Assembly: GCF_004118935.1 (NCBI RefSeq)
Contig: NZ_CP035375.1
Location: 992,001-1,056,000, forward strand
DNA: 64,000 nucleotides
Direction of reading: 5' to 3'
Source of the DNA: Salinibacterium sp. UTAS2018
GTDB taxonomy: Bacteria; Actinomycetota; Actinomycetes; Actinomycetales; Microbacteriaceae
Position 1 is the stretch's first letter. Each line of letters starts with the position of its first letter. The translations under genes and the position numbers were made by a program. This document shows, piece after piece, positions 2,459 through 53,129 of the stretch. The notes beneath the pieces were generated by a model, which saw only the letters and a program-made list of their open reading frames with translations, ran no database searches and was not told the origin of the DNA.

Positions 2459-3640
2459 CTAGCCGCGCCCCAGCACGGTCATCCGGTCAGAGTATCCAGC
2501 GCTACGGGCTTGCTCCACGGCTTTCGGGAGAGCGGCAACGAACTGCTCCACCTCGTCAGTCGTGCTTGACTCCCCCAACGAGATGCGCAGGGCTCCGCGC
2601 GCTGCGGGTTCGTCAAGGCCCATCGCCAGCAAGACGTGGCTCGCTTCGGGCACTCCCGCCTGGCAGGCGGAGCCAGTCGAGACGCTGAAGCCCGCGACAT
2701 CCAGCAAGAACAGCAGAGAGTCGCCCTCGCAACCGGGGAAAGTGAAATGAGCGTTGCCTGGTAAACGATCGCTCGGGTCACCGCGCAACACGGCCTCGGG
2801 AACGGCTGTCTGCACTCCGGCGATGAGCGAATCACGCAGCGTCGTAAGCCTGGTCGCCTGCTCAGCCAAGTCGGCGGTGGCCTCACGTGCCGCCGCGGCA
2901 AAGGCGACCGCGCCGGGCGCGTCCATAGTTCCCGAGCGTGCGCGCTGCTGGCTACCACCGTGAATAAGAGGAGTGACGGATGCCGAGCGCGCAATCACGA
3001 GCGCTCCGACGCCAACCGGACCACCGATCTTGTGAGCCGAGACACTGAGCGCCGCGACACCGGCCGCGTGAAAGTCAATAGGAACGTAGCCGAACGCCGA
3101 CACGGCATCCACATGCACCGGAACGCCGTGGGCCGCCGCAAGCGCGGCAATCTCGGCGACCGGCTGCAGGCTACCCACCTCGTTATTTGCCCACAACATC
3201 GAGACCAGCGCGACATCGTCGGCGAGCGCACTCCGCACATAGTCGACATCGATGCGACCGAGAGTATCGACCGGAATCCAGTCGAGTTCTGCACCTTCGT
3301 GGGCCCGCATCCATTCGACCGCATCGATCGTTGCGTGATGTTCTGCCTGCGCGACGAGCACTCGGCGGCGCTCAACGGCACCCGAGTTTCGCGTCCAGTA
3401 CAACCCTTTAAGGGCAAGATTGATGGCTTCGGTACCGCCCGAAGTAAAAGTGACCTCTACCGAATCTGCGCCAACGCTCGCCGCGACAGTTTCTCGCGCC
3501 TCTTCAAGCATTCGCTTCGCCGCTTGGCCCTGAGAGTGAATCGACGAGGGGTTACCCACCACAGGCAGTGCCGCCGCGAAAGCCTGCACTACCGAAGGGC
3601 GCATAGGCGTTGTGGCCGCGTGGTCGAGATAAATGGTCAC
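2459..3640 (-). CDS. Cysteine desulfurase (NifS/IscS family, class V aminotransferase fold)
   Basis: A PLP enzyme that converts cysteine to alanine and passes the sulfur as a persulfide, here most plausibly to MnmA and Fe-S assembly. Landmarks in the 393-residue product are IYLDHAATTP at the N-terminus, EHHATID, the PLP lysine in SAHKIGG (about K204) and the active-site cysteine in STGSACQAG (about C326), matching IscS geometry. The GTG at 3640 is chosen for the GGAG five bases before it. An in-frame ATG at 3673 would add 11 residues. A 17-codon Cys-rich frame ends in a GTGA overlap with this start (see 3637-3690). Confidence 0.95.
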   Translation of the reverse strand: MTIYLDHAATTPMRPSVVQAFAAALPVVGNPSSIHSQGQAAKRMLEEARETVAASVGADSVEVTFTSGGTEAINLALKGLYWTRNSGAVERRRVLVAQAEHHATIDAVEWMRAHEGAELDWIPVDTLGRIDVDYVRSALADDVALVSMLWANNEVGSLQPVAEIAALAAAHGVPVHVDAVSAFGYVPIDFHAAGVAALSVSAHKIGGPVGVGALVIARSASVTPLIHGGSQQRARSGTMDAPGAVAFAAAAREATADLAEQATRLTTLRDSLIAGVQTAVPEAVLRGDPSDRLPGNAHFTFPGCEGDSLLFLLDVAGFSVSTGSACQAGVPEASHVLLAMGLDEPAARGALRISLGESSTTDEVEQFVAALPKAVEQARSAGYSDRMTVLGRG

Positions 3641-3690
3641 CGTAACTCCGTTACTCCGCCACAGCATCCGCATAAATGGCTGTGTGTCAT
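3637..3690 (-). CDS. Candidate Cys-rich leader peptide of the cysteine desulfurase gene
   Basis: A 17-codon frame, MTHSHLCGCCGGVTELR, with three Cys codons in four (TGC GGA TGC TGT). Its TGA overlaps the GTG start of the cysteine desulfurase (GTGA), and the desulfurase Shine-Dalgarno lies inside its last codons, a layout that permits translational coupling. The sequence before its ATG has only a weak -10 candidate (CGATCT with 6-base spacer), and a better box (TAGAGT, 3692-3697) would start transcription just inside the frame. Its expression is therefore less secure than that of the sister frame at 3704. Confidence 0.45.
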   Translation of the reverse strand: MTHSHLCGCCGGVTELR

Positions 3691-3696
3691 TACTCT
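3691..3696 (+). promoter_or_regulatory. -10 box for the leaderless ybaK leader ORF
   Basis: TACTCT lies 7 bases before the ATG at 3704, fitting TAnnnT for a leaderless start. Any promoter for the divergent desulfurase gene must overlap this same short interval. Confidence 0.5.
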
Positions 3697-3703
3697 AGAT
3701 CGC

Positions 3704-3757
3704 ATGCACTGCTGCTTCGACCCGGCTCCCCCTCGCTCGCGGGCAAACGATCGCTGA
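3704..3757 (+). CDS. Candidate Cys/Pro leader peptide upstream of the Cys-tRNA(Pro) deacylase
   Basis: A 17-codon frame, MHCCFDPAPPRSRANDR, with tandem Cys codons at positions 3-4 and three Pro codons at 7, 9 and 10. It ends TGATG, sharing an A with the ATG of the YbaK-type gene, which has no Shine-Dalgarno of its own and may rely on ribosomes finishing this frame. The downstream enzyme hydrolyses Cys wrongly attached to tRNA-Pro, so Cys and Pro codons are apt sensors. Polycysteine leaderless leader peptides that attenuate cysteine genes are known in mycobacteria; function here is inferred. Confidence 0.55.
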   Translation: MHCCFDPAPPRSRANDR

Positions 3758-4233
3758 TGGCGCTCGGAACCCCAGCCACCGTTGCGCTCGATGCGCTCGG
3801 CATCACCTTCACTGCACACCCCTACGCGCACGACGCCAGCAACCAGGACTATGGCATCGAAGCCGCCACCGTCCTCGGAGTTTCTCCCGAGCAGGTCTTC
3901 AAGACCCTCATGACCGTGGTGGATGACGAGATGATCGTTGCCGTCGTTCCCGTTTCGGGAAAACTCGACCTCAAAGCGCTCGCCTCGACTCTGGGCGGCA
4001 AGAAGGCGACGATGGCCGAGCCCGCGGTTGCACAGCGACGTACCGGTTATGTGCTGGGCGGCATCAGCCCGATTGGGCAAAGGCTCCCCCACCGAACCGT
4101 GATCGATGAGACCGTCGAACTCTTTGAGACCGTGTTCGTGAGCGGCGGCACACGCGGATTCGACATTGAGCTTTCGCCCGCCGACCTTCTTCGCGCTACC
4201 GACGCTCACGTCGGCGCGATTGCTCGCGACTAG
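3757..4233 (+). CDS. ybaK: YbaK/EbsC family Cys-tRNA(Pro)/Cys-tRNA(Cys) deacylase
   Basis: A 158-residue trans-editing enzyme that clears Cys mischarged onto tRNA-Pro by prolyl-tRNA synthetase. The start matches the family's usual opening (MALGTPATVAL). KTLMTVVDDEMIVAVVPVSGKLDLK and the GGISPIGQR motif with the following hydrophobic strand are family landmarks. No ribosome site precedes the ATG; it overlaps the stop of the leader frame at 3704-3757. It diverges from the cysteine desulfurase and converges on the thioredoxin-like gene, with the two stop codons sharing CTAG. Confidence 0.93.
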   Translation: MALGTPATVALDALGITFTAHPYAHDASNQDYGIEAATVLGVSPEQVFKTLMTVVDDEMIVAVVPVSGKLDLKALASTLGGKKATMAEPAVAQRRTGYVLGGISPIGQRLPHRTVIDETVELFETVFVSGGTRGFDIELSPADLLRATDAHVGAIARD

Positions 4234-5186
4234 TAGAGCAGCAATGTGAGTCGGCGACGAGCATCTGCTACGCGAGGATCTTCGGCGCCAGCGATTTCGA
4301 AATAGTCGAGCAAGCGGGTGCGAATAGCGCCTTTGCCATTGGCGTCTGCTGAGGGAAAGAGCTCGAGCAGTCGGTCGAAGGCGTCGCCCAGATGACCACC
4401 AGAGATATCGAGGTCAGCCACGGCGAGCTGAGCCTCGACATCGGCAGGAGCTTGAGCTGCGGCACTGCGCACCGAGTCAGCGGTATGCCCTTCAAGCCGA
4501 GCCAACAGCGAAACCTGAGCGAGCCCGGCGATGGCCTGTTGGTCGCGCGGGTTCTGCGTGATAGCCGTCTTGTAGGCCTCGATCGCCGTAGCGAAGTCGC
4601 CAGCAGAAATCGCGTCGAAAGCTTCTTGGTGCAAGGGAGGTAGCGGCTCTTCGACCGGTTCTACGGCCTCGTCCTCCGCCGTTTCATCGGCCGCAGGCAA
4701 TGTGCCCGTCACCTTGTTTTCGGCAGCGAGCTGCAAAACCTGTTCAAGCACCTCTTTGAGGTCGTTCTCCGGCATGATGCCGCTAAACAACTGCACGGGG
4801 CGCCCGCCGATGACGGCTGCGACAGTCGGCACCTCTTGCACTTGGAACGCTTGCACCAACTGGGGGTTTGCCGTGGCATCCACGGTGACCAAGGCGAACC
4901 GGCCCTTGTACTGGGCGATCGTCGGTTCGAGCGATGCTTCGATTCCTTGGCCAAAGAACTCAACGATGACGGGCACCGTATTGGAGAGTTCAAGAACTTG
5001 GGCAAAGGAGGCATCGTTCGCACTCGTGGCGTAGCCGCTCGGCGCCCGAGACTCGGCAGCAGCATCTGCGGGAGCATCTCCCGCCGGAGCACCCGCCGCC
5101 GAGGCGGGAGTGTTGTGCTGGCGAACGAGCGACGAAAGGTCGACAGCTCCGCGAAGACTAGCGGCGTTCAGGGGGGCGTTTGTCAT
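4230..5186 (-). CDS. Thioredoxin-fold/TPR protein, CnoX/YbbN-like, lacking the redox CXXC
   Basis: A 318-residue cytoplasmic protein. After a disordered Ala/Pro-rich N-terminus (about residues 25-50) comes a thioredoxin fold: VPVIVEFF, then GQGIEAS where CGPC would be, VTVDATANPQLVQAFQVQEVPTVAAV with the cis-Pro, and GRPVQLFSG. An acidic linker leads to TPR-like helices (EAFDAISAGDFATAIEAYKTAITQNP) to the C-terminus. This is the architecture of YbbN/CnoX holdase co-chaperones, and loss of the cysteines rules out disulfide chemistry. Its ATG overlaps the stop of the upstream membrane protein gene by four bases, so the two are translationally coupled. Confidence 0.85.
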   Translation of the reverse strand: MTNAPLNAASLRGAVDLSSLVRQHNTPASAAGAPAGDAPADAAAESRAPSGYATSANDASFAQVLELSNTVPVIVEFFGQGIEASLEPTIAQYKGRFALVTVDATANPQLVQAFQVQEVPTVAAVIGGRPVQLFSGIMPENDLKEVLEQVLQLAAENKVTGTLPAADETAEDEAVEPVEEPLPPLHQEAFDAISAGDFATAIEAYKTAITQNPRDQQAIAGLAQVSLLARLEGHTADSVRSAAAQAPADVEAQLAVADLDISGGHLGDAFDRLLELFPSADANGKGAIRTRLLDYFEIAGAEDPRVADARRRLTLLLY

Positions 5187-14619: not shown

Positions 14620-15333
14620 CTATCCGTGCACGCGGGTGCCGATCTGCTCGCCCACGATGGCGCGAGTTAGGTTTCCGGCGGGCTCCATGCCGAACACGAG
14701 CATGGGCATCGAATTGTCCATGCACAGGCTGAAGGCGGTGGAGTCAACAACCTTGAGGCCCTGAACGAGAGCGTCTTGGAAGCTAATGGAATCGAGCTTG
14801 CGGGCATCCGGGTTGCTGCGAGGGTCAGCGTCGTAAACGCCATCCACACCATTTTTAGCAACGAGCACTTCTTCAGCGCCGATTTCGAGGGCACGCTGAG
14901 CGGCCACGGTGTCGGTTGAGAAGTACGGCAGGCCAGCGCCCGCACCGAAAATCACGACGCGACCCTTCTCAAGGTGACGCTCTGCACGCAATGGAATGTA
15001 GGGCTCTGCAACCTGAGTCATGGCAATAGCTGACTGCACCCGCGTTGCCACACCGGCCTGTTCCAAGAAATCCTGAAGGGCGAGGGCATTCATCACAGTG
15101 CCCAGCATTCCCATGTAGTCAGCGCGACCACGGTCCATGCCGCGTTGGCTCAGTTCCGCTCCGCGGAAGAAGTTGCCACCACCGACGACAATTGCGATTT
15201 CCACGTCAGTGGATGCCGCCGCAATTTCTTTGGCGAGAGCCGAGACAACATCCGGGTTCACACCCAGCTGACCACCACCGAACGCTTCTCCCGATAGTTT
15301 CAGCAGCACTCGGCGTTTGCGTTGAGTTGTCAT
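14620..15333 (-). CDS. pyrH: Uridylate kinase (UMP kinase)
   Basis: A 237-residue amino-acid-kinase-fold enzyme phosphorylating UMP to UDP. Landmarks are [11 protein letters not shown] at the N-terminus, [27 protein letters not shown], and [43 protein letters not shown]. Length and motifs are standard. GGAAAG precedes the ATG. It lies between tsf and frr on the same strand. Confidence 0.98.
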
Positions 15334-52058: not shown

Positions 52059-53129
52059 ATGTCAGAGATTGAGATCACGACCCTCGAGATTCCTCTCGCG
52101 CTCTCTGCCGAGGGGTCGGATGACTTCACCGCGGCGACCGTGCTGCGGAATGAGACCGACGAAGTGCTGCTGCACTACCCCGAACTGGCCTTCGACCCGG
52201 CTGTCTCGCTGGTGAGCCAGCAACCGAGCGCATTCGAGGAGCGGCGGATGCTCGTCGCCCGCGATCAGGAACGCATCGTGGGCCGCGGCGACTACAGCAC
52301 CACCGTCGGCGAAGATGCCGATACCGCGTGGATCGAAGCGTACGTGCATCCGGATTATCGGCGTCGCTGCATTGGGGCCCGGCTTCTCGCTGAGCTCGAG
52401 ACCGTTGCTCGGGATGCCGGCAAACGCAAAGTCCACGTGTATGTCTCGAGCCTGCCCAGCGAGGGCGCGCGCCTCGACTCCCCCACGGGCTTTGGCGCGG
52501 TGCCCCGCGACGGCGCCGGAACGCAGTTTCTCCTCGCGCAGCAGTACAGCTTCGAGCAGGTCGAACGGGTGAGCCGGCTCCCCCTCCCTATCGCCGGCCT
52601 GCACTCCCTTGTCGACGACGCCATCAAGCGCTGCAGTCGCGACTATGCCGTGCACGAGTGGGTGGGGCTGTGCCCGAAGCAGTGGCGAGACGACCTCGCG
52701 CTTCTCTACACGCGGATGAGTACGGACGAACCCAGCGCGGGGCTTGAGCCTCCCGAAGACGTGTGGACTGCAGCACGAGTAGTCGATCACGACGAACGGG
52801 AATTGGCGAGCGGGGTGACGACCGTCTACGCGGCGATCGAGCACGTCGCGTCGGGAGACTTGGTGGCGTACACCGCGCTCACCGTGCCTGTGCAAGCCGA
52901 GCGTGCGGTGCTCCAAGACAACACGATCGTTCTCAGCGAACATCGCGGCCACCGCCTTGGCAACCTGCTCAAGGTGTTGAACCTCGCGCACCTCGAACGA
53001 GTCGCGCCCGGGCATCCGTCGGTCATCACCTACAACGCTGAGGAAAACCGTCACATGCTCTCGGTCAACGAGGCCGTGGGCTTCGTGCCTATCGGATACG
53101 AGGGCGCCTGGAAGAAAGAGTTGCGCTAG
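52059..53129 (+). CDS. Tandem-GNAT acetyltransferase
   Basis: A 356-residue protein with two GNAT domains. The first has the acetyl-CoA loop region in WIEAYVHPDYRRRCIGARLLAELETVARDAG; the second VLSEHRGHRLGNLLKVLNLAHLE with a more degenerate loop. Such duplicated GNAT proteins include mycothiol synthase, but no specific mark for it was seen. It sits between smc and the chorismate mutase gene, interrupting the usual smc-mutM order. Confidence 0.87.
   Translation: MSEIEITTLEIPLALSAEGSDDFTAATVLRNETDEVLLHYPELAFDPAVSLVSQQPSAFEERRMLVARDQERIVGRGDYSTTVGEDADTAWIEAYVHPDYRRRCIGARLLAELETVARDAGKRKVHVYVSSLPSEGARLDSPTGFGAVPRDGAGTQFLLAQQYSFEQVERVSRLPLPIAGLHSLVDDAIKRCSRDYAVHEWVGLCPKQWRDDLALLYTRMSTDEPSAGLEPPEDVWTAARVVDHDERELASGVTTVYAAIEHVASGDLVAYTALTVPVQAERAVLQDNTIVLSEHRGHRLGNLLKVLNLAHLERVAPGHPSVITYNAEENRHMLSVNEAVGFVPIGYEGAWKKELR

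Follow-up and report, generated by a model that had tools for sequence, protein, structure and literature searches.

A leader of 17 codons precedes ybaK in the stretch of Salinibacterium sp. UTAS2018 analysed here (the window, 64 kb), and our results suggest that this open reading frame (ORF), with the peptide MHCCFDPAPPRSRANDR, is probably the leftover of a leaderless glgX, the gene of a glycogen debranching enzyme, which would now feed ribosomes to ybaK by reinitiation. The ancestral order would have been nifS and glgX in divergent orientation with ybaK behind glgX (nifS <- -> glgX -> ybaK), and glgX would have been translated as a leaderless first gene. Glycogen genes would then have been lost in one clade of the genus and glgX would have shrunk to 17 codons, retaining its promoter and start codon and ending in a stop codon with which the start of ybaK overlaps.

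The most likely function of the leader is leaderless ribosome loading followed by reinitiation at ybaK. We infer that transcription starts at 3704 and that ribosomes would load on the 5'-terminal AUG at this position, read to the stop at the end of the 17-codon frame and start anew on the ybaK AUG that overlaps it. On this view it would matter little which peptide is made, and the Cys and Pro codons of the window would reflect drift. Given that leaderless initiation and coupling at overlapping codons are both established (PMC4633059, PMC6728339), ribosome delivery is the simplest mechanism.

The glgX promoter and start codon in relatives

YbaK is present in 26 of 27 genomes of the genus, and comparison of the upstream DNA of all 26 showed that 11 share the context of the window (G000, G001, G005, G006, G010-G014, G023 and G025; hereafter leader genomes). 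By their coordinates, three of the 11 correspond to Salinibacterium sp. SWN167, Salinibacterium sp. NG253 and marine actinobacterium PHSC20C1. When 398 sampled genomes of the family were searched with CATTACTCTAGATNGCATG, a pattern made of the promoter and the ATG, with one mismatch allowed, 26 of them were matched, against none for the reversed pattern used as control. Eight of these carriers are leader genomes, and the remaining 18 without exception have glgX starting at this ATG and nifS in divergent orientation. Both nifS and glgX occur in all of the 20 loci fetched from relatives, and ybaK lies downstream in 18, at -14 to +43 nt from the glgX stop in 13 loci, at 300 nt in two and at 1.4-4.3 kb in three. 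Within the genus, each of the 15 genomes that have ybaK without the leader carries glgX on the upstream side of ybaK, no farther than about 4.3 kb away. A TANNNT box with 7-nt spacing was observed at glgX in 20/20 loci, a count that arises partly by construction, since the glgX starts were picked by a rule of TANNNT plus 6-8 nt.

The gene itself is missing where the leader is found. GlgX over the cut-off was detected in 0/11 leader genomes and in 16/16 other genomes of the genus, and the same distribution was seen for GlgB and, at E <= 1e-50, for GlgC. Where synteny would place glgX, the leader genomes carry its promoter and start codon but not the gene, and these features (start and promoter, place, absence of the gene) are firm anchors for the proposed glgX origin. 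In a YbaK tree of 29 rows, a branch supported at 97/98 has all the leader genomes on the same side. The joint absence of GlgX (over the cut-off), GlgB and GlgC from the leader clade also points to a lost glycogen metabolism.

Some relatives differ in how ybaK itself is started. In G003, G004 and G009, whose ybaK is separated from glgX by 1.4-4.3 kb, a TANNNT box stands 6 nt ahead of the ybaK ATG with no T at -2, and ybaK may therefore be leaderless there; the missing T also speaks for the delivery reading. At the loci L020, L021 and L024, ybaK is apart from glgX and has a TANNNT box of its own 6 nt before the ATG.

Conservation of the leader and its junction with ybaK

The preliminary description of the window, made from its letters alone, had reported a TACTCT box, a 7-base spacer, an ATG, 17 codons and a TGATG leading onto ybaK, and all of these are correct as placed: in the window sequence the box at 3691-3696 is followed by the spacer (3697-3703) and the ATG at 3704, and the A of the leader TGA (3755-3757) is also the first base of the ybaK ATG (3757). 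Its YbaK-type assignment of the downstream gene was likewise borne out, as the protein scores 172.7 bits with TIGR00011 (cut-off 153.25) and belongs to this family, and we agree that ybaK lacks a clear Shine-Dalgarno (SD) sequence in the window, where the best anti-SD pairing is -2.3 kcal/mol vs a shuffle mean of -4.2. No sigma-70-type promoter was found across 3550-3900 when both hexamers were required, so the motif support for the leader promoter is the -10-like box only. Scanned mechanically on both strands, the window yielded three arrangements of TANNNT, mini-ORF and overlap, the leader among them. Its anatomy alone is not beyond chance, but conservation raises it above chance. The other two arrangements are at 14955 and 63726, both on the - strand.

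The promoter stretch, the ATG, the 17-codon length and the stop-start overlap are kept in 11/11 leader genomes, and TACTCT plus 7 nt precedes the ATG in every one; these 11 are all the genus members with the locus. Mean pairwise identity over the 11 genomes is 0.905 for the promoter stretch and 0.723 for the first 90 nt of ybaK, and within the leader it is 0.817 for nt 1-18 vs 0.490 for nt 19-51. Phe-Asp is found at codons 5-6 in 11/11 and His at codon 2 in 9/11. The stop codon of the leader is TGA in six genomes, TAA in four and TAG in one, the last of which has a GTG start of ybaK.

These data bear on the possibility that the frame is purely a scar, untranslated or without a role, whose promoter and start are held since the same DNA also serves nifS, and whose overlap was simply inherited. 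The promoter stretch is indeed common to the divergent nifS and the inner leader codons have diverged to 0.49 identity, as such a scar would have it, but the overlap survives in 11/11 genomes even though the stop codon takes three forms and one of the starts is GTG, and nt 13-18 are conserved. In a neutral simulation at the distal-leader rate, the junction stayed intact in all 11 with a P of about 0.0003 (0.010 at half that rate), and we consider a pure scar unlikely. It has also to be weighed whether the conserved stretch between the promoter and nt 19 serves chiefly as an operator at which some regulator would act on nifS and ybaK. Although the near-invariant blocks GTGTCATTACTCTAGAT and TTCGA would suit a binding site, outside the clade the CAYTACTCTAGAWCGC block sits at glgX starts, in a promoter-like manner, the TTCGA block is absent at the same distance, and no regulator was identified. 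We regard an operator as quite improbable.

Several observations weigh against the descent from glgX and the ribosome delivery that we prefer. The likeness of the leader to the GlgX N-terminus was matched by 20/500 column permutations, which is marginal, and the first and last glgX windows rank mid-field (median 21% and 40% from the top). The best leader-like region lies instead around codons 307-327 in 17/20 glgX genes, and the FRFDLA motif region is inside 19/20 of the best GlgX windows. With 8/11 leaders, all 20 GlgX proteins score 150-193, and none of the 48 control ORFs, whose average length is smaller, exceeds 146. A post hoc permutation test (8/11 leaders with 5/20 glgX genes) gave 0/100 permutations; the 20 proteins are homologues of one family, so they amount to about one observation. 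The likeness to this internal region is suggestive and stronger than that to the N-terminus, but post hoc and drawn from one gene family, and the inner codons may or may not descend from glgX. The leader frame has internal stops in 0/11 genomes, vs 4/11 and 2/11 for the other two frames, but a frame free of stops in all 11 is not significant in the neutral simulation (P 0.39). The P for the junction rises to 0.043 at 0.3 of the distal-leader rate, and something other than coupling might preserve positions -2 and -1 of ybaK. Ribosome delivery alone does not account for the near-invariance of nt 13-18 (TTCGAC), where 5/6 columns are invariant in the 11 genomes vs 3/33 in nt 19-51 (p 5e-4). Lastly, the root of the YbaK tree is not fixed, and weak GlgX-model matches below the cut-off occur in 9/11 leader genomes (E 2e-5 to 3e-4), which we take as other alpha-amylase-type proteins.

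Other explanations of the conserved stretch were tried and rejected. An N-terminal extension of YbaK across the leader region is ruled out by stops in the ybaK frame in 2/11 (L011 and L014). A conserved ybaK SD sequence within the leader is not supported either, as the pairing ranges from -1.3 to -6.8 in the 11 genomes and is not consistently better than in shuffles; GGAG or AGGAG is seen inside the leader in L006, L007, L008 and L012. MHxxFD is too unspecific to mark a leader family, given that ATGMAYNNNYNNTTYGAY occurs in 20/27 genus genomes and four times in the window's own genome. In a one-per-genus sample, the full leader pattern matched 1/21, the window's own genome only.

Cysteine and proline codons of the leader

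The preliminary description had further proposed that the leader could sense Cys or Pro charging, with ribosomes slowing at Cys-Cys and P-x-PP and thereby altering ybaK expression, as in the polycysteine leaderless attenuators of mycobacteria. Such attenuators, reportedly treated by Canestrari et al. in 2020, are said to consist of a short leaderless frame with adjacent Cys codons ahead of a cysteine-linked gene. Like them, the leader is short and of leaderless type, with a Cys-Cys pair in the window and a cysteine-linked gene next to it; unlike them, it has no conserved Cys cluster and a probable origin in glgX.

The window peptide does hold CC and PAPP, and ybaK acts on Cys-tRNA(Pro). Codons 3-4 encode CC in 4/11 leader genomes and a single Cys (SC or PC) in 2/11, but they are without Cys in 5/11 (SR, PR twice, LR and QH) and differ even among close relatives, and P-x-PP is confined to the window sequence among the 11 leaders. 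These two codons vary though the adjoining TTCGAC (3716-3721) is nearly invariant. Moreover, the leader would be explained by the loss of glgX, a gene without a link to cysteine. An attenuator or riboswitch was also rejected, with no terminator-like site in 3550-3900, no Rfam match in 3600-4300 up to E 0.1 and no unusual fold in three transcript segments, which fold slightly less well than shuffles (z +0.99, +1.44 and +1.46). Hence, of the preliminary interpretation, the leaderless-type promoter, the mini-ORF and the overlap with ybaK are supported in 11/11, and Cys/Pro sensing is not. The comparison across genomes does not support the sensor, which we hold to be highly improbable, even though it could apply in the window's own species, where CC occurs. 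Small coupled leader frames, which abound in some Actinobacteria, are frequently interpreted as sensors, and our results caution that an attenuator should not be called from the codons of one genome.

Known systems and neighbouring features

According to Shell et al. 2015 (PMC4633059), coupled leaderless small ORFs are found in mycobacteria, with an overlap in the form of an RTGA tetramer. One published example retains its start and coupling without conservation of the peptide, and the authors state that such ribosome delivery is independent of the peptide sequence. Measured against that text, the leader is similar in that its stop overlaps the downstream start (11/11) and in that the putative coupling is kept as the peptide diverges (identity of 0.49 over nt 19-51), codons 5-6 being the exception. 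Unlike RTGA, however, the overlap here is of one base, TRRTG (TGATG, TAATG or TAGTG), and the leader belongs to another actinobacterial family, with an origin traced to the probable loss of a leaderless gene. The available part of Huber et al. 2019 (PMC6728339) describes termination-reinitiation at overlapping genes, with the SD sequence dispensable for some gene pairs. Stop and start overlap in those pairs as they do here, but the upstream partner of ybaK is a 17-codon frame and not a protein gene, and Microbacteriaceae are not among the organisms tested in that part.

Coupled leaderless small ORFs form a known class (PMC4633059), and the gene-loss origin and the TRRTG overlap would make the leader a variant of it. 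Among the titles listed by a literature search with limited coverage of subscription papers, none concerned a leader of ybaK or one that arose through the loss of a gene. The relatives with and without glgX show a plausible route to such a leader, namely gene loss that spares the parts that feed ribosomes to the next gene, and the genus offers a natural series for the role of the leader, with ybaK coupled after glgX, apart from glgX or after the mini-ORF. More tentatively, when a leaderless operon loses its first gene, as proposed for these glgX-less genomes, the start and the stop-start junction could stay behind as a minimal peptide for ribosome delivery, and it is conceivable that some of the coupled leaderless small ORFs with poor conservation in Actinobacteria are such gene scars and not evolved regulators.

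Table 1. Features of the leader region and its neighbours in the window.
Feature	Position	Strand	Basis or remark
-10-like box TACTCT	3691..3696	+	same promoter serves glgX in relatives
17-codon leader ORF MHCCFDPAPPRSRANDR, including TGA stop; presumed glgX remnant	3704..3757	+	window sequence, 11-genome alignment, neutral simulation
Leader nt 13-18, codons 5-6 (Phe-Asp, TTCGAC), nearly invariant	3716..3721	+	11-genome alignment
TGATG stop-start overlap	3755..3759	+	window sequence, 11-genome alignment, neutral simulation
ybaK, Cys-tRNA(Pro) deacylase family	3757..4233	+	TIGR00011
nifS/IscS-like cysteine desulfurase, divergent neighbour	2459..3640	-	start set by homology at about 3640

Elsewhere in the window, a start of the MHVRFD type, ATGCACGTACGCTTCGAT, was noted at 52332-52349 on the - strand; at another place, the identical string occurs in G010 and an identical or nearly identical one in G011 and G012.

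On the side of nifS, the TACTCTA in 3684-3704 contains a TANNNT in either direction, TACTCT on one strand and TAGAGT on the other, so that divergent promoters may share a single box. A GTG of nifS lies 7-8 nt from TAGAGT in G021 and G004, which suggests that nifS and glgX are both leaderless there. In the leader clade nifS starts farther from the box, with GGAG 5 nt ahead of its GTG (3638-3672, - strand), and it seems to have moved there from a leaderless to an SD-led start.
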